Shown: piece by piece, positions 8,669 through 33,544 of the stretch
Numbering within the stretch: position 1 is the first letter of the stretch
How the letters are laid out: each line of letters begins with the position of its first letter
Source of the DNA: a virus
DNA length: 64,000 nt
Direction: 5' to 3' (one strand)
IMG/VR virus record: IMGVR_UViG_3300028284_000005
Location: 1 to 64,000 of that record
Notes under the pieces: model-generated
Told to the model about the DNA's origin: nothing
Database searches by the model: none
The model's input: the letters and a program-made list of their open reading frames with translations, nothing else
Translations under genes and position numbers: made by a program

Positions 8669-9697
8669 ATGCTTAAAACGTTTGAACAATTTATAGTTGA
8701 AAAATCTAATAAAGACTATTTTAAAAAGGTTAATTTTTTATTAGCTGGAGAAAAGATTGAAGGTCTTACTGGTACCAATAATAAAAGAATCTATGGTGAA
8801 ATAAATGACATTTGTTTAAATGAACTATTCAATACATATTACGCAAAGGGAGATTATGGAAAAGAATTAAACGTAGATCCAAAACTTCCAATTATATATT
8901 ATGGAGGTAATAAAAAACAATCTTTAGAATTTTTAGAAAAGTATAAAATCTCAGAAGATACAATGTATAATTTACCTAAACAAATGAAAGTTAGTGGTAG
9001 TAAATCTAAATTTTATAAAGAATTTGAAGATTGTGATTTTATATGTAAGACTGTTTATAAAAGAGAAGACGCAAAGGACTTACAATTTCCAGTAATTGCA
9101 AAGCCAGATGGAGAACACTCTGGACTAGGTATAGAAATATTTGATAAATATGAAGATTTAGAAAAAAGTAAAGGTGAATTTGCAAATTATTCAGAAGCAA
9201 AAGATCTTGATAAAGAATTCAGAGTACTATTAATGAATGATAAAATAGTTCTAGTCCATGAGAGAGTTTCAGCAGGTGAAAATGAAATTAGAGACAAAGA
9301 ATCAAATGAACAAACTGAATTTACATATGTTGACCAGGACATGTCTAAACTAGATTTTTTAGAAAAAGTAAATGGAATTTGTAAAACTATTAGAGAAAAG
9401 ATGAGGTTAGGCCTTTGGTCAATTGATTTAATGATTGATAAAGAAGGTAAATGTTGGGTTGCTGAAATAAATTCAGCTTCTGGCATGGCAGCTGATAAAA
9501 TGGCCAGAGTTTATGTTATGATATATGAAGACTTTTATGGTGAAAAATTACCACAAGAATTTAAAAATTATTTAAACGAAGAATATATTAAGCCTATTTA
9601 TAAAATTAATCTTAAAGAAAATGTAGCTCAAATTAAGAAATCTAAATGCTGCGTTAATTATCAAAACATCATAGACGGTAAAGAAACAATACTTTAA
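8669..9697 (+). CDS. ATP-grasp ligase with capsid-targeting-like N-terminus
   Basis: 342 residues. ATP-grasp hallmarks: FPVIAKPDGEHSGLGI (about 140-155; Lys145 and the glycine loop bind ATP), DKEFRVLLMNDKIVLVHERV (181-200), and GLWSIDLMIDKEGKCWVAEIN (248-268), supplying the Asp, Glu266 and Asn268 that bind Mg2+. Such enzymes form amide or thioester bonds through an acyl-phosphate. The first residues MLKTFEQFIVEK resemble the T4 capsid-targeting sequence, with a possible I-V-E cleavage site, so it may be packaged in the head. It is coupled to the glycosyltransferase upstream. The substrate cannot be told; amino-acid ligation to a peptide, RimK style, is one option. Confidence 0.82.
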   Translation: MLKTFEQFIVEKSNKDYFKKVNFLLAGEKIEGLTGTNNKRIYGEINDICLNELFNTYYAKGDYGKELNVDPKLPIIYYGGNKKQSLEFLEKYKISEDTMYNLPKQMKVSGSKSKFYKEFEDCDFICKTVYKREDAKDLQFPVIAKPDGEHSGLGIEIFDKYEDLEKSKGEFANYSEAKDLDKEFRVLLMNDKIVLVHERVSAGENEIRDKESNEQTEFTYVDQDMSKLDFLEKVNGICKTIREKMRLGLWSIDLMIDKEGKCWVAEINSASGMAADKMARVYVMIYEDFYGEKLPQEFKNYLNEEYIKPIYKINLKENVAQIKKSKCCVNYQNIIDGKETIL

Positions 9698-12608: not shown

Positions 12609-13424
12609 ATGAACTACTACAACGTATTAGGCGTAGATAAAGGGGCATCTGATTCTGAAATAAAGAAAGCATACCGTAAAAAAGCAAAGGAGTATCATCC
12701 TGATAAAAACGGCGATCCAGAAAAGTTTAAGGAAGTTAGTGAAGCTTATGATGTTTTAGGAGATAAAACTAAGAAGCAAAACTATGATCAATTTGGAGAT
12801 CCTAAGGGAAGTCCATTTGGTGGAAGGAATCCTTTTGGAGGCAATGGTGGAAATCCCTTTGGTGGCAGTGGAGACTTTGCAGATATGTTTAATGACATAT
12901 TTGGAAATAGAAGACAGGCTAAGGGTCAAGACTTTAGGGTTAATATGACTTTTAATTTTAACGAAGCATTCCACGGTTGTCGTAAAGAATTTTCAGTAAA
13001 TGGACAAAGACTTGCTATGAATTTTAAACCTGGTTTATTTACTGGGCAAACATTTAGAATTAACGGTAAAGGAGGTGCTAACCCCTATAATCCTGATGGA
13101 CCTAGAGGGGATGTTATTATAAATGTAACAGTTATACAAGATTCTAGATTTGTGTTACAAGGGAGTGATATATGGACTGAATTAAATCTTGACTGGTGGG
13201 ACATAATGATAGGTTGTAAAAGAGAAGTTGAAACACCTGATGGCAAAGTTTTACTTAAAATTCCAGAAAACACATATCCTGGCAGGGTACTGAGGATAGT
13301 TGACAAAGGTTTCCCGATATATAATACAACAAACAGAGGAAGTTTGCTTTGTAGGATTAATGGTAAATGGCCAAAACTTACAGAGGAACAACTTGAATAT
13401 GTTAAAAAAATAAAAGTAAAATGA
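12609..13424 (+). CDS. dnaJ: DnaJ / CbpA-type J-domain co-chaperone
   Basis: 271 residues. The J domain (1-65) is canonical: NYYNVLGVDKGASDSEIKKA, then HPD at 30-32, then KFKEVSEAYDVLGD. A Gly/Phe-rich linker (about 68-95, repeated NPFGG) follows, then two beta-sandwich client-binding domains with FNEAFHGCRKEF and GDVIINVTVIQDSRF. The Cys4 zinc finger of type A DnaJ is missing, so it is type B like CbpA. It would deliver clients to host DnaK and stimulate its ATPase. It overlaps the next gene by 4 bases. PhoH, bS21 and a broken hsp20 are nearby. Confidence 0.93.
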   Translation: MNYYNVLGVDKGASDSEIKKAYRKKAKEYHPDKNGDPEKFKEVSEAYDVLGDKTKKQNYDQFGDPKGSPFGGRNPFGGNGGNPFGGSGDFADMFNDIFGNRRQAKGQDFRVNMTFNFNEAFHGCRKEFSVNGQRLAMNFKPGLFTGQTFRINGKGGANPYNPDGPRGDVIINVTVIQDSRFVLQGSDIWTELNLDWWDIMIGCKREVETPDGKVLLKIPENTYPGRVLRIVDKGFPIYNTTNRGSLLCRINGKWPKLTEEQLEYVKKIKVK

Positions 13425-13684
13425 TAGGCGAAAGTCCACTTGGTGAATTTAATGATTTTGAAATGTTTCTAAATATGTTAGTAACTAAACCAATTAATCC
13501 TGGTCACGTCTATGAAATGATTTATGATGCTTTAATAAAAGATACTTCATATGCAATATATGGAGGTTATCCAAAGGATTTAAAATTAAAAGCCTTAGAT
13601 TCTTTAATTAATTGGTTTGAATTAACTGAAGAATTTGAAAAATGTAAAGAAGTAAAAACTATAAAAGACAAGATATGCTCATAG
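13421..13684 (+). CDS. Small protein with UVR-like C-terminal motif
   Basis: 87 residues, ATGA-coupled to dnaJ. The C-terminal part ALDSLINWFELTEEFEKCKE followed by VKTIKDKI has the same helix pair as the proteins at 11760 and 13943 (LIxxFExxEEFEKCxxxxxxKDxI). The N-terminal half is unrelated to those two. No enzymatic motif. It overlaps the bS21 gene by 10 bases, so translation of the two is coupled. Confidence 0.65.
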   Translation: MIGESPLGEFNDFEMFLNMLVTKPINPGHVYEMIYDALIKDTSYAIYGGYPKDLKLKALDSLINWFELTEEFEKCKEVKTIKDKICS

Positions 13685-13866
13685 TAAATGTAAAGAAAGA
13701 TATAGAAAAGGCGTTAAAGCAATATAAGCGTAAAGTTATTAAGACTAAGCAATCTAGAAAACTTAATGCAAAACGATACCACACCAAAAAATCAGTACTC
13801 CGTAGAGAGGAAGTCAAAAATGCCCAATATATTGAGAGAATGTATGGCAACAAAAATAATGACTAA
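13675..13866 (+). CDS. rpsU: Ribosomal protein bS21 homologue, Bacteroidota type
   Basis: 63 residues, very basic. MLIVNVKKDIEKALKQYKRK and the later KTKQSRKLNAKRYHTKKSV plus RREEVKNAQYI follow the bS21 layout: a short beta start, an Ile-xx-Ala-Leu-xx-Tyr-Lys-Arg-Lys helix, an R-x-R/K-x-(F/Y) turn and a final helix. The MLI opening, KRYKRK-KT spacing, KKSV step and AQYI ending look closer to bS21 of Bacteroidota than to the E. coli protein. bS21 sits by the 3' end of 16S rRNA and affects mRNA binding; phage-encoded copies are known. It likely replaces or competes with host bS21. It overlaps the upstream gene by 10 bases. Confidence 0.82.
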   Translation: MLIVNVKKDIEKALKQYKRKVIKTKQSRKLNAKRYHTKKSVLRREEVKNAQYIERMYGNKNND

Positions 13867-14223: not shown

Positions 14224-14925
14224 ATGAGTAAAGGCCAAAAATCTAAAAGTGGAATTAACATTAGTACACTTCTTAAAGATTGTGTAAAAAGAGTTCAACT
14301 TAGGCAATCACAGCAACAATATGTAAGAACTGTAGATGAAAATAAAATAATATTTTGCCATGGCCCTGCCGGAACCTCAAAAACCTTTACAGCATGTTAT
14401 ATCGGACTTAAGATGCTTAGTGAAAAGCAAATTAAGAGAATTGTACTTTGTAGACCAATGGTTGAAAGTAGCGAAAAACTTGGATTTTTACCAGGTGTAT
14501 TAGAAGAAAAGATCTCACCATATTTAAAATCATATAAATCTAATATTGAAAAAATAATAGGTAAAGAAGCAACAAGTGAATTGTTTGAAAAAAATATTAT
14601 TACATTTGAGCCACTTGCATATATGAGAGGTGATACTTATGATGACGCATTAATGATTCTCGATGAGGCACAAAATGCTGAAATGAAAAGTTTAATGTTA
14701 TTTGTAACAAGAATGGGTAAATCAAGTAAATCAATTGTTGCAGGTGATATTAATCAATATGACATTCAAAGAAACAAAGTCAGTATGCCTAAGTTTTATG
14801 AAATAATTAAAACAACTAAAGGAGTGGGCCAACATATATTTACAGAAAAAGATATTGTAAGAGCCAAGATACTTATTGAAATCGTTAAAAAGTATGATGC
14901 TTGGAAAGATAACGAAGGTAGGTAG
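14224..14925 (+). CDS. phoH: PhoH-like P-loop ATPase
   Basis: 233 residues, the length of the core PhoH domain. Walker A CHGPAGTSKT (about 45-54), followed by VLCRPMVESSEKLGFLPG (the conserved RP-V-GE-LGFLPG motif of PhoH), then EPLAYMRGDTYDD, Walker B ALMILDEAQN, and GDINQYDI. PhoH proteins are ATPases related to superfamily 1 helicases, common in marine T4-like phages; RNA remodelling has been proposed and the role in infection is unsettled. It lies between the UVR-motif gene and RNase HII. Confidence 0.95.
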   Translation: MSKGQKSKSGINISTLLKDCVKRVQLRQSQQQYVRTVDENKIIFCHGPAGTSKTFTACYIGLKMLSEKQIKRIVLCRPMVESSEKLGFLPGVLEEKISPYLKSYKSNIEKIIGKEATSELFEKNIITFEPLAYMRGDTYDDALMILDEAQNAEMKSLMLFVTRMGKSSKSIVAGDINQYDIQRNKVSMPKFYEIIKTTKGVGQHIFTEKDIVRAKILIEIVKKYDAWKDNEGR

Positions 14926-14966: not shown

Positions 14967-15599
14967 ATGAAAAAAGCAAAACACATTATTTTAAAATCTT
15001 ACATGAACGAAAACCTCATTGAGGTAGGATTAGATGAAGCAGGAAGAGGAGCATTGGCTGGACCAGTCGTGGTTGCAGGTGTTATAATGCCAAAAGGATT
15101 TACACATCCTTTAATTAAAGATTCTAAATTATTAAATGAAGGTGAAAGAAGAGAAGCAAGAGCATTGGTGTTAGATAATGCAATTTCATATTCAATTAAA
15201 GCCATTGATGTAGATTATATTGAAAAAACAAATATTTTAAAGGCTACATTATTTGGAATGAAAGAATGTTTAGATGGAATTAAAATGAAAGGAGATCAAT
15301 TTGATTTTATTCTTGTAGATGGAGATCAATTCCATGGTTGGAATGGACTTCCATTTGAAACAGTAGTTGGAGGTGATAATAAATACACATCTATTGCTGC
15401 AGCTTCTATACTTGCAAAAACAAGTAGAGATTTAATTATGAAAAAATTAAACGAAGGCCATGAACAATATGGTTGGAATTCCAATAAAGGTTATGGAACT
15501 AGTGCACATCGAAATGCAATTAAACAGGATGGAGCAACTGAACATCACAGAATGAGTTTCATAAATCACATGTTAACCTCAACTGTGAGTTTATTTTGA
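14967..15599 (+). CDS. rnhB: Ribonuclease HII
   Basis: 210 residues. GLDEAGRGALAGPVVVAG (21-38) carries the catalytic Asp23-Glu24 and the GRG motif that reads ribonucleotide-DNA junctions; FILVDGDQ supplies Asp118; AAASILAKTSRD is the conserved fourth motif. The length is typical. RNase HII cuts RNA in RNA-DNA hybrids, including single ribonucleotides, and could remove primers or misinserted ribonucleotides. T4 itself uses a different RNase H (a 5' nuclease), so this is a different solution. Its stop overlaps the TTG start of the next gene. Confidence 0.95.
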   Translation: MKKAKHIILKSYMNENLIEVGLDEAGRGALAGPVVVAGVIMPKGFTHPLIKDSKLLNEGERREARALVLDNAISYSIKAIDVDYIEKTNILKATLFGMKECLDGIKMKGDQFDFILVDGDQFHGWNGLPFETVVGGDNKYTSIAAASILAKTSRDLIMKKLNEGHEQYGWNSNKGYGTSAHRNAIKQDGATEHHRMSFINHMLTSTVSLF

Positions 15600-17052: not shown

Positions 17053-17277
17053 ATGTTACAAGCAATTTCAATATACCTGCTAATCGGAATCTTAATTAAT
17101 GTATTAGTTGATTTAATGTACGACTGGATGGGTAATAATAAAATAGACTATAATTTAGTAGACACTAACATGTCCAATGAAAAATGGAATAATTTTACAA
17201 AGATCGTCGTTACTCTATTATGGCCAATATGCATTGTTTACGTGGCAATACAAATTTTTAACGAATATACAAAATGA
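17053..17277 (+). CDS. Small membrane protein (two segments)
   Basis: 74 residues with two hydrophobic segments, AISIYLLIGILINVLVDLMY near the start and IVVTLLWPICIVYVAIQIF near the end, separated by a polar stretch. It overlaps the UV endonuclease gene by 4 bases (ATGA). No recognised family. Confidence 0.6.
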   Translation: MLQAISIYLLIGILINVLVDLMYDWMGNNKIDYNLVDTNMSNEKWNNFTKIVVTLLWPICIVYVAIQIFNEYTK

Positions 17278-18224
17278 CAAATTACGGATACTGTTGTATT
17301 AACAAAACACTTGCCGAACAAGGTATTAAAGTCGGTAGAAAAATGATTAAAAAAACCTTTACTGAAAGAGGTATTGAATATGCAGGTCAACTTGCACTCT
17401 TAAATGTAAATGACATGTGTAAAATTATTAAATGGAATAATGAAAATGGCATTAAACTTTATCGCATGTCTTCAAGTATGTTTCCATGGTCTACTGAATA
17501 TGCACTAAAGGATCTTCCTACATATAATAGAATTAAAGTATTATTACAAGGCGCTGGTAGTCTAGCAATGGAAGGTGGTCAAAGACTTACATTCCATCCT
17601 GGTCATTTTTGCGTATTGGCTAGCATGACTCCTAAGGTAGTATCTTCTGCGATACATGAATTAAATCAACATGGCGAAATCATGGACCTCATGGGTCTCC
17701 CAAGAAATCCTAACGCACCTATCAATATACATGTCAATACAACAATGGGTGGCAAGAAAGAAAGTATGGAAAGGTTCTGTAAAATATTTAAAACACTAGA
17801 TGAAAGTGTAAGATGTAGACTTGTTGTAGAAAATGATGACAAGAAAGCACAATACAGTGTAAAAGATTTGAAAGAAGGAATTTCAGATGTGATTGGCTGT
17901 CCAGTTATGTTTGATTATCACCATCATTGGTGTTATGCAGATCCAATGCCAGTCAAAGAAGCATTTGAACTTGCAAGATCAACATGGCCAAAAGGAACTA
18001 AACAATGTACACACTATAGTTCATGTAAACAAATACATGAAGATAGTTCAGTTATGAATAGAGCACATGCTGATTATATTTATGAAACTATTCCAACATT
18101 TGGTTATGATGTAGACGTGGAATTGGAAGCTAAGGCTAAAGAACTTGCATTAATTAAATACTTAGAAGATCTAGCCCATAAAAAATTTTATAAGACTCAA
18201 ACTGGTCAAACATTAGTTGTTTAA
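17274..18224 (+). CDS. uvdE: UV-damage endonuclease (UvdE family)
   Basis: 316 residues, close to the bacterial UvdE length. The TIM-barrel signature is present: NYGYCCINKTL at the start, KLYRMSSSMFPW (61-72), LTFHPGHFCVL (105-115), IHVNTTMGGKKESMERF (152-168), LVVENDD (183-189) and MFDYHHHW (212-219). The His, Asp and Glu residues of these motifs bind the metal cluster. UvdE nicks DNA 5' of UV photoproducts and other lesions, an alternative to UvrABC. T4 uses DenV for this job, so UvdE may play the same part in a sunlit marine phage. Confidence 0.93.
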   Translation: MTNYGYCCINKTLAEQGIKVGRKMIKKTFTERGIEYAGQLALLNVNDMCKIIKWNNENGIKLYRMSSSMFPWSTEYALKDLPTYNRIKVLLQGAGSLAMEGGQRLTFHPGHFCVLASMTPKVVSSAIHELNQHGEIMDLMGLPRNPNAPINIHVNTTMGGKKESMERFCKIFKTLDESVRCRLVVENDDKKAQYSVKDLKEGISDVIGCPVMFDYHHHWCYADPMPVKEAFELARSTWPKGTKQCTHYSSCKQIHEDSSVMNRAHADYIYETIPTFGYDVDVELEAKAKELALIKYLEDLAHKKFYKTQTGQTLVV

Positions 18225-30940: not shown

Positions 30941-30952
30941 GATATATAAATC
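30941..30952 (+). promoter_or_regulatory. Candidate phage promoter before the S1-domain gene
   Basis: GATATATAAATC has TATAAATC at 30945-30952, one base off the T4 late consensus TATAAATA. It lies 29 bases before the start codon at 30982, in a 56-base gap. Confidence 0.45.
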
Positions 30953-30981
30953 ATAAGTTTTAACCTTTAAAAAATAAAAAA

Positions 30982-32181
30982 ATGATAGAAAAACAGAATG
31001 CTGACTTTTTTGATAAAGATGGCAATTTCGACTGGGATGGATATGAGTCAACATGTCCAAAAGTTTTAAGAACCCCAAACCCACACATAAAAGTAGTAAA
31101 CGATAAGCATAAAGTATATAGTAGAGAGCCATACGCTCAGGAAATGTATAATAAGCTTATAGGTCACATTGAAGAAAATGACACAATTACACATATAAAA
31201 TATGGAAATGCATATGATGGTAAAGTCTTTGGAATTTCCGATATGACTGCAAGTGTTGACATTGGATATAGACAATTAGTTTATGTTAATTTAGAAAAAG
31301 AAGATGATGAATTCAAAGGCATGCAACCTGGTGATGAGGTTAGTGTTATTATTACATCATTAATGGAAAATGATAGCCAACCTATAATGGGAAGTGTTAG
31401 TGAAGGCACTAAGCAAGCTACTTTCCAAGAAATGCTAAATGCTATCGAAGAACAAGATACTGCATGGGTTGGTAAAGTTAATAGAATGTTATCTTCAGCT
31501 GGATATATGATTAATGTTAAAGGCATTGATTGTTTTATGCCAGGCAGCCTTGCAGGTATTAATAAATTACATGATTTTGAAAGCATAGTTGGTCAAGAAA
31601 TTTATGTAGTACCGGTTAGTTTTTCTAAAGAAAGAAAAATAATGGTAGTTTCTCATAGAGCGTATCTTAAGACATTAATTCCTGATGCTATTGAAACCTT
31701 AAAAGAAACTGCAGGCGAATATATTACGGGAAGTGTTACAGGTTCTGCTAAATATGGGGTTTTCTGTGAATTCTCACAATGTTTAACTGGTATGATTCAT
31801 GTTAATGATTTAGATGGTGACACATTGACTAGACACAAAAATAGGGAAATTGAACCAGGTGAAGAGATTAAGTTTAAAGTAAAGGATATTGTATCTGACA
31901 CTAAAATAACACTGACTCAAAGAGATGATGTTGAATTAAATCCATGGTTAGAAATTAATAAGAAATACAAAGTACCTTCTACTGTTAAAGCTACTATAAA
32001 AACTTGTAAAGAATACGGCTTATTCGTAGAATTAGAAGAAGGTGTAGTTGGATTAGTACATGTTAGTGAAATCGGTAAAGATAGCATTAATAAATATAGT
32101 CCAAAACAAGAAATAAGTGTCTTAATTACTAAAATAGAAGAAGATACTAAGAAGATATTCTTAAAATTGCCTAAGGAATAA
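30982..32181 (+). CDS. Protein of four S1 domains, ribosomal protein bS1-like
   Basis: 399 residues containing four S1 RNA-binding folds at about 76-137, 160-225, 246-314 and 332-397. Domains 3 and 4 are the clearest: GSVTGSAKYGVFCEFSQCLT then GMIHVNDLDGD, and VKATIKTCKEYGLFVELEEG then VVGLVHVSEIGKDSI, each ending in IxLTQR or IFLKL. Bacterial bS1 has six repeats, four of them RNA-binding. The protein has no nuclease or PNPase domain, so it is most like bS1. It would bind mRNA and could carry transcripts to host ribosomes, or act in phage RNA handling. It sits in the tail module with its own promoter-like element. Confidence 0.8.
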   Translation: MIEKQNADFFDKDGNFDWDGYESTCPKVLRTPNPHIKVVNDKHKVYSREPYAQEMYNKLIGHIEENDTITHIKYGNAYDGKVFGISDMTASVDIGYRQLVYVNLEKEDDEFKGMQPGDEVSVIITSLMENDSQPIMGSVSEGTKQATFQEMLNAIEEQDTAWVGKVNRMLSSAGYMINVKGIDCFMPGSLAGINKLHDFESIVGQEIYVVPVSFSKERKIMVVSHRAYLKTLIPDAIETLKETAGEYITGSVTGSAKYGVFCEFSQCLTGMIHVNDLDGDTLTRHKNREIEPGEEIKFKVKDIVSDTKITLTQRDDVELNPWLEINKKYKVPSTVKATIKTCKEYGLFVELEEGVVGLVHVSEIGKDSINKYSPKQEISVLITKIEEDTKKIFLKLPKE

Positions 32182-32230: not shown

Positions 32231-33544
32231 ATGCTAACATATCAAATTACAAAACATAAAAGTAAAGAAGATATTTTACAAGATTCTCTTGTCGGAATAG
32301 AGTTTGAATTTTATTCCGATAAGAGTCTTGAAGATACTCAAAAGGAGCTTGCTCAATTATTAGGTAAAAAGATTAGGCTAGAGGATAAAGCACATAGTGA
32401 CTTTGTGCCAACTGATAAAGAATTTAAAATTGAGCCTGACATGAGTGGTGGTAAAGGTTTGATGGAGCTTGTTACTGGTCCAACACCCTACTCAGTTGCA
32501 AGAAATATAATAATTAAAACACTAGGCTGGATTCAAGAAAATGGATATACTACTGAAAAAAGTTCAATTCACCTAAATTTAAGCTTTGATCCTAAAAAAA
32601 CTGGTAAAAGTAACCTTATTTCTAAAATGGATTCTCTTAAATTTATTCTAGGATTTAATGAAAATGAAGTTTATAAATTATTTCCAAATAGAAAAGATAG
32701 CGTATATGCAAAGTCTGTAAAATGGATAACTCCTAAAATTGATTATAATTATTTTGAAGGACAAAACATTAATTCACATGTGTTTCATTTTGCAACTGAA
32801 AAATATTATGGAGTTAACTTTGAAAAACTACAACAAGGTTATTTAGAATTTAGATATATTGGTGGTAAAGACTATGAAAAGAAAACTACTAATATTTTAT
32901 ACTTATTAGATCGTTTCCTATTACAACTTTGGTCAATTGCTCATCAAGCTAAGTATACTGATTTAAATTATATTGAACTTAAAAAAATTCTTAATAAAAA
33001 CCATAAGTTTACTGAAATATTAAAAGATTGGAGAAGGTTAAAAGACTATTATCCTGAAATTAATCTCTATGTTGATTTAAAAAATAATGAAAAAATAATA
33101 GATATGTATTGGCCGAAAATATTAATGGAGGTTGTTCGGTTAATTAGTCATGGTGGATTAAAAGAAGGAGATATTAATTATGATAGTGATATTAGTAGAG
33201 TACAGTTAAATGGTGGTAAATTGCCATTTTGTTTTGGTTTAAGTAATTATGATTTTATTGACTGTGAGATTGCAGGTTCTATAAGTTTTTGTGATATTTT
33301 TAGAAGTCAAGTTAGTAATGCAAATATGATAAGATGTAACTTATATCAAGGTACATCGGTTGAAGGTAGTAAAGTAGAATCATGTTATGTTAACCAAACA
33401 TGTGAAGTTAAAAATAGTTATGTGTTTCAGTGGGATTCTGTATTTAAAGGTAAAATGATTGGTGGAATATTTAGACATGGTCAAATAGGTAGAGAGGCAG
33501 AGTTCGATGGCACTGAAATAATAACAAGTAAAAAAATTAATTAA
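32231..33544 (+). CDS. Amidoligase-like enzyme fused to a beta-helix
   Basis: 437 residues. The N-terminal 240 residues match the amidoligase pattern (Pfam Amidoligase_2, glutamine-synthetase-like COOH-NH2 ligase fold): VGIEFEFYSD (21-30, metal-binding acidic pair), KIEPDMSGGKGLMELVTGP (66-84), SSIHLNLSFD (111-120, His) and LEFRYIGGKDY with an Arg (about 205). A helical section follows. The C-terminal 100 residues are pentapeptide-like repeats (YDFIDCEIAGSISFC; NANMIRCNLYQGTSVEGSKV) that should form a right-handed beta-helix. Such enzymes join amines to carboxylates using ATP. The enzyme lies in the baseplate operon; the substrate is unknown. Confidence 0.72.
   Translation: MLTYQITKHKSKEDILQDSLVGIEFEFYSDKSLEDTQKELAQLLGKKIRLEDKAHSDFVPTDKEFKIEPDMSGGKGLMELVTGPTPYSVARNIIIKTLGWIQENGYTTEKSSIHLNLSFDPKKTGKSNLISKMDSLKFILGFNENEVYKLFPNRKDSVYAKSVKWITPKIDYNYFEGQNINSHVFHFATEKYYGVNFEKLQQGYLEFRYIGGKDYEKKTTNILYLLDRFLLQLWSIAHQAKYTDLNYIELKKILNKNHKFTEILKDWRRLKDYYPEINLYVDLKNNEKIIDMYWPKILMEVVRLISHGGLKEGDINYDSDISRVQLNGGKLPFCFGLSNYDFIDCEIAGSISFCDIFRSQVSNANMIRCNLYQGTSVEGSKVESCYVNQTCEVKNSYVFQWDSVFKGKMIGGIFRHGQIGREAEFDGTEIITSKKIN

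Follow-up and report, generated by a model that had tools for sequence, protein, structure and literature searches.

The virus of IMG/VR record IMGVR_UViG_3300028284_000005 codes for a shortened version of ribosomal protein bS1 which, judging from its conserved residues and its neighbouring genes, can be read with fair confidence as a late, ribosome-docking, four-domain substitute for bS1 working beside a phage bS21 at the mRNA exit channel. Viruses equipped with both proteins probably refit the host ribosome at the place where messages dock. The window analysed here has 64,000 nucleotides and represents nearly all of the 65,751-base record. The S1 gene occupies exactly positions 30982-32181 (+ strand), starts with ATG and codes for a 399 amino acids-long bS1-like protein with four S1 (OB) domains and no nuclease, as given in the preliminary description and confirmed by Pfam, a PDB search, an AF2 model and Foldseek. 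The Pfam S1 family (PF00575) matches the protein at 1.1e-25 in three significant stretches while no nuclease or other catalytic family was found in the Pfam search; tandem S1 domains free of a catalytic domain are what is expected of a bS1. The gene is under purifying selection (dN/dS 0.09-0.15). No S1 family was obtained for the protein from PHROGs and an Rfam scan of the locus gave no match.

The domain plan is the one of bS1 cut from six domains to D1-D4, a proposal that PDB alignment and domain-profile comparison both support. Residues 75-396 align with residues 18-343 of E. coli bS1, corresponding to D1-D4 (phmmer against PDB, E=6e-37). The AF2 model (pLDDT 80, pTM 0.52) has four OB barrels and its top Foldseek match is bS1 in a 30S mRNA-delivery complex (3e-26). 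The best domain-profile pairs (hhalign probability) join domain 1 (residues 72-140; 31195-31401) to D1 of bS1 (97%), domain 2 (residues 158-228; 31453-31665) to D2 (98.5%) and domain 4 (residues 331-397; 31972-32172) to D4 (99.4%), so that the bS1-specific D1 and D2 are present in the right order. Domain 3 (residues 246-316; 31717-31929) is collinear with D3 yet its profile is nearer to D4/D5, showing that it has diverged. Both domain 3 and domain 4 are of the RNA-binding type: Y258 and F261 in the former and Y345, F348 and H360 in the latter are invariant in a 20-sequence alignment, and H273 of domain 3 is nearly so. In E. coli bS1 D5-D6 are dispensable and D1-D3 are enough for 30S binding and mRNA melting (PMC3858243), so a protein limited to D1-D4 can still function as bS1. 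The S1 of phage Lak-C1 has just three S1 domains (D1-D3), which is the minimal working S1 of E. coli.

Docking of E. coli bS1 on uS2 is mediated by its N-terminal Phe5/Phe9 and by Lys43, which is inserted in the uS2 Zn pocket (PMC10123108). The phage protein carries a candidate counterpart of each element. The first is the motif GNFDWDGYE (residues 14-22; 31021-31047), conserved in phage S1s, whose F16 and W18 do not vary across the 20-sequence alignment although some members are only ~41% identical to the window S1. Each of the 49 distinct full-length phage S1s has F-(x)-W (35 F[DEN]W, 11 FMW and 3 FW). Among the fetched bacterial sequences, F-[DN]-W (ENFDWDAFE, ANFNWHNFQ, DDFDWSVDR) occurs in one clade of Bacteroidota bS1s including Bacteroides, Parabacteroides and Dysgonomonas, which we take to be the class Bacteroidia in view of these named members. 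It is absent from the other fetched Bacteroidota bS1s and from two gammaproteobacterial bS1s. A structure entry of a Flavobacterium-type bS1 (9zcd) is available. The second element is R97 (codon 31270-31272), invariant in the 20-sequence alignment down to ~41% identity and falling in the Lys43 column of the joint alignment; this column holds K in the S1s of Mahaphage-type phages and of the 462-kb phage and lacks a basic residue in Lak-C1. The linker (residues 23-71; 31048-31194) features a phage-specific segment, K-V-[FY]-[SC]-x-E-x-Y-A-Q-E-x-Y, common to Lak megaphage S1. At the sequence level, an anchor motif combined with a basic residue at the Lys43 position is what is expected of bS1. F-(x)-W and R97 would bind uS2 in Bacteroidia, and we infer from this that the phage S1 binds the ribosome.

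The same docking elements are compatible with a different outcome of binding, in which the short phage S1 displaces host bS1 from uS2 and, being devoid of D5-D6, penalizes the bS1-dependent host messages while simple phage leaders are spared. Such a host shut-off would suit the short, A-rich phage leaders, the weak structure of the S1 leader (folding z=+1.0 versus shuffles) and the fact that some mRNAs depend on bS1 more than others (PMC9976891, PMC3858243). However, the dispensability of D5-D6 in E. coli means that truncation alone need not inactivate the protein, and the RNA-binding residues of D3-D4 are conserved; we consider shut-off unlikely. We are similarly doubtful of a role away from the ribosome, where the protein would protect, unfold or route late phage mRNA, or act as partner of an RNase as host S1 does with T4 RegB. 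S1 domains recur in many RNA decay proteins and chaperones and the activation of RegB by host S1 is a subject of PMC9409239, but the phage protein has no nuclease part and an off-ribosome function would not be expected to preserve F-(x)-W and R97 on the uS2 side, which are conserved. A ribosome-docked bS1 substitute remains the preferred reading.

The position of the S1 gene in the tail/baseplate module was confirmed. In all 26 syntenic relatives with enough flank (upstream, homologues of the baseplate genes 29665 or 30386 where the contig extends that far) S1 stands between baseplate genes on one side and 32231 followed by 33546 on the other; its neighbours in these loci are baseplate-hub and head-tail/wedge genes, and this gene order is conserved down to 40% identity. 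The gene directly after S1 (32231-33544, + strand) follows it in every syntenic relative and adjoins S1 also in the 462-kb phage LR756500. The model of its product (pLDDT 88) has a glutamine-synthetase/amidoligase-like fold, with glutamine synthetases as the nearest fold (3e-5), and a C-terminal beta-helix; the protein is probably an amidoligase. The fixed location of S1 among these genes would fit a protein of the virion or tail that might enter the cell along with the DNA to act early, and packaging was raised for phage bS21 by Chen et al. (PMC9723584). Yet the S1 gene of Lak-C1 lies at 402 kb and the homologous baseplate gene at 243 kb (356 kb versus 200 kb in Lak-A2), a distance indicating that S1 is not structurally tied to the tail, and the best structural matches are ribosome-bound S1. 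A virion function is accordingly held to be improbable.

The promoter-like element GATATATAA precedes the S1 gene (30941-30949, + strand). The window has 11 copies of it where 2.8 are expected; every copy is on the coding strand and 10 sit 12-41 nt before a start codon. TATATAA is present upstream of S1 in 43 of 49 relatives and a GATATATAC-type variant in the remaining six. Since GATATATAA also precedes several other operons it is not special to S1, and it looks like a general phage promoter. The late-module location of S1 behind a promoter-like element is thus borne out by synteny and by the overrepresentation of GATATATAA, and late timing of S1 is suggested by the location of the gene. The S1 leader features additionally a box of its own, AACCTTTAAAAA (30962-30973, + strand). 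The window-derived pattern AAC-N0-3-TTAAA is found in 38 of 49 S1 leaders and in 25 of 780 other leaders, a count that is not an independent test because the box was first spotted by eye. Relatives of one sub-clade (L033-L043, L049) have an altered form of the box, and the host rpsA leaders that were inspected have none. It is a possible autoregulation site of S1. A structured autoregulatory leader is unsupported, as folding is no better than that of shuffled sequences.

Related S1 loci in IMG/VR number 50 (40-92% identity) and belong to a clade of mid-size, mostly marine viruses; annotated phage records add the S1s of Lak megaphages and of 462-735 kb phages. Structural relatives in BFVD are named "30S ribosomal protein S1" and originate from uncultured marine phages. 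In an unrooted tree built without Gram-positive bS1s, all 26 phage S1s group together (100/100) outside the 46 bacterial bS1s, which speaks against the bS1 reading; the branch leading to them is long, with a long-branch warning, and precludes placing their origin. A bait bS1 served only to fetch the bacterial sequences, and every comparison was made with fetched sequences. A GTDB scan with phage S1 patterns identified no bacterial relative and hence gives no hint of a host donor in recent times. Capture of host genes by phages is known to occur, but a recent neutral capture of host rpsA is contradicted by the deep separate clade, by a dN/dS of ~0.1 and by a gene order conserved to 40% identity, and can practically be dismissed. 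Two INPHARED records were left out as host chromosome: "Acinetobacter phage MD-2021a" (L069, CAKLQH020000011), with the cmk-rpsA-ihfB order of Acinetobacter, and the human faecal "Bacteriophage sp." (L068, MT835643), with a six-domain Bacteroidota bS1. A Pseudoflavonifractor-labelled MAG (L102, JAMPAQ010000001) has a Bacteroidales-type rpsA with 89% identity to the bait and is mislabelled or contaminated. The source virus is a myovirus whose baseplate relatives are mostly found in Bacteroidota phages (Lak phages of Prevotella and phages of Tenacibaculum, Chryseobacterium and Flavobacterium), with a few from Sphingomonas and Pseudomonas phages. Bacteroidia are its likely hosts, the F-x-W motif, the bS21 aromatic residue and the absence of Shine-Dalgarno (SD) sequences (see below) being in agreement.

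The bS21 gene (13675-13866, + strand) is preceded by a leader without SD and codes for a 63 amino acids-long protein (pI 10.4) matching PF01165 with 33.9 bits, above the Pfam cut-off of 27. Its Y52 stands at the position of F. johnsoniae Tyr54, a correspondence established via the conserved A-x-Y segment rather than by aligning the F. johnsoniae sequence. An aromatic residue occupies this position in 37 of 37 distinct phage bS21s (33 Y, 3 F and 1 H), as expected of bS21 of the Bacteroidia type. The pairing of S1 with a phage bS21, put forward in the preliminary description, is supported by the informative records in both directions. Reading from S1, bS21 is found 16.4-24.2 kb upstream in 11 of the 12 S1 records that reach that far (window included), and these 11 span five S1 lineages with 43-92% identity; the exception, L050, is the sole informative member of its sub-clade. 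Reading from bS21, S1 lies 19-33 kb downstream on the same strand in 25 of 31 close relatives, many of them near-copies, the 31 being those that show S1 or extend at least 29 kb downstream; six lack S1 (L233, L245, L249, L252, L259, L284). Outside the clade both genes were found in four of the six huge or Lak phages tested, and S1 alone in Lak-A2, Lak-B5, Lak-C1 and the 462-kb phage; W01 is a further S1 phage without bS21. The cultured relatives PTm1 and MaF61 have neither gene. The survey for S1 phages regularly lacking bS21 thus favours the pair within the clade and goes against it in L050 and in the distant Lak and 462-kb phages: co-occurrence across lineages, as expected from genes of a take-over pair, holds inside the clade and is not universal beyond it. 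The existence of S1 phages without bS21 and of bS21 phages without S1 implies that the two are not obligate partners. The association is strong, yet most of it is inherited, and within a single clade common ancestry may be all that lies behind it.

Parts of the preliminary description had to be revised. The site shared by bS1 and bS21, given there as the one where mRNA enters, is the mRNA exit channel/platform (PMC10123108). The idea that phage S1 favours SD-free leaders also finds no support. The window genes show no SD enrichment (4 of 63, versus 2.3±1.3 when shuffled), but Bacteroidia ribosomes do not use SDs (PMC9976891): the likely hosts are SD-independent already and their own leaders are mostly SD-free, so missing SDs cannot separate phage from host mRNA. 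Specificity through SD-less leaders was for this reason rejected. Leaders of phage bS21 genes lack an SD in 71 of 75 cases (window 13675-13866 and L210-L284). In many Flavobacteriales rpsU has an extended SD used for autoregulation (PMC9976891), and the SD-less phage gene would escape this host control by bS21-lacking ribosomes.

In the mechanism that we propose, the N-terminal aromatic motif and the Arg at the Lys43 position, the two features expected to seat bS1 on uS2, would anchor a phage S1 that keeps D1, D2 and D4, has a diverged third domain and has dropped D5-D6. Its D3-D4 would capture A/U-rich messages of the phage and pass them on to the 30S, and the phage bS21, with the aromatic residue that keeps the anti-SD away, would complete a virally refitted mRNA platform. 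Viral bS21 enters ribosomes (PMC6375957), and bS1 is loosely bound, its addition doubling initiation on SD-less mRNA with F. johnsoniae ribosomes (PMC9976891). Any preference for phage messages would reside not in the missing SD but in another feature, candidates being the leader sequence, the abundance of late mRNA or a loss of host bS1/bS21 supply. More tentatively, S1 and bS21 might be an exchangeable two-protein cassette rebuilding the whole Bacteroidia mRNA-exit platform late in infection, with S1 self-controlled via its leader box, a virus-made specialised ribosome in SD-blind bacteria.

Such a take-over system had been called undescribed, but ribosome redirection was already proposed in 2020 by Al-Shayeb et al. 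for huge phages carrying rpS1 and rpS21, in which rpS1 phages rarely have SDs (PMC7162821). The >634-kb phages of that study, with predicted Bacteroidetes hosts, have the same S1 family (33-38% identity), and bS21 is found in all four tested, whereas the clade described here is mid-size and mostly marine and keeps S1 at a fixed place in the tail module, with a syntenic bS21. The host phylum, being SD-independent, is a likely confounder of the published correlation of phage rpS1 with the lack of SDs, which may reflect this phylum and not a mechanism. The bS21-carrying Bacteroidetes myoviruses of Chen et al. 2022 (PMC9723584) share the aromatic, ASD-blocking bS21 residue, the host group and the late/structural association; a term search of that account finds no mention of S1. 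Relative to the six-domain bS1 of Bacteroidia, the phage protein has the D1-D4 order and the F-x-W N-terminal motif but no D5-D6, a longer linker with the phage-only segment, R at the Lys43 position and a separate clade. The four-domain bS1s of Firmicutes and Actinobacteria (PMC6705787) resemble it in domain number and length (~390 amino acids) but not in its Bacteroidia-type N-terminal motif. Cyanophage PhiMa05 also encodes a bS1, among several ribosomal proteins, in another host group; that bS1 is reportedly derived from Vampirovibrio-like hosts, and the six ribosomal proteins of the phage do not include bS21 (PMC13157829). New here are the definition of a phage S1 family extending from mid-size marine phages to megaphages, its D1-D4 assignment and conserved docking features, together with the fixed S1-bS21 synteny and the S1-specific leader box. 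Among viral ribosomal proteins phage bS21 is the commonest, and there is no settled view of its purpose. With an S1 partner that conserves the uS2-docking features, mRNA selection at the exit channel of bacteria without SD pairing can be cast in a concrete model open to testing.

Several other genes of the window deserve mention. Close to bS21 are encoded a DnaJ with a C-terminal domain (12609-13424), a PhoH-like ATPase (14224-14925), an RNase HII-like protein (14967-15599) and a UvdE endonuclease (17274-18224). An ATP-grasp ligase (8669-9697) matches the PHROG "ribosomal protein S6 glutaminyl transferase" (2e-9), Pfam placing it nearer to D-Ala-D-Ala ligase (6e-6). Should it prove RimK-like, it would bear on bS6, which forms one wall of the anti-SD pocket.
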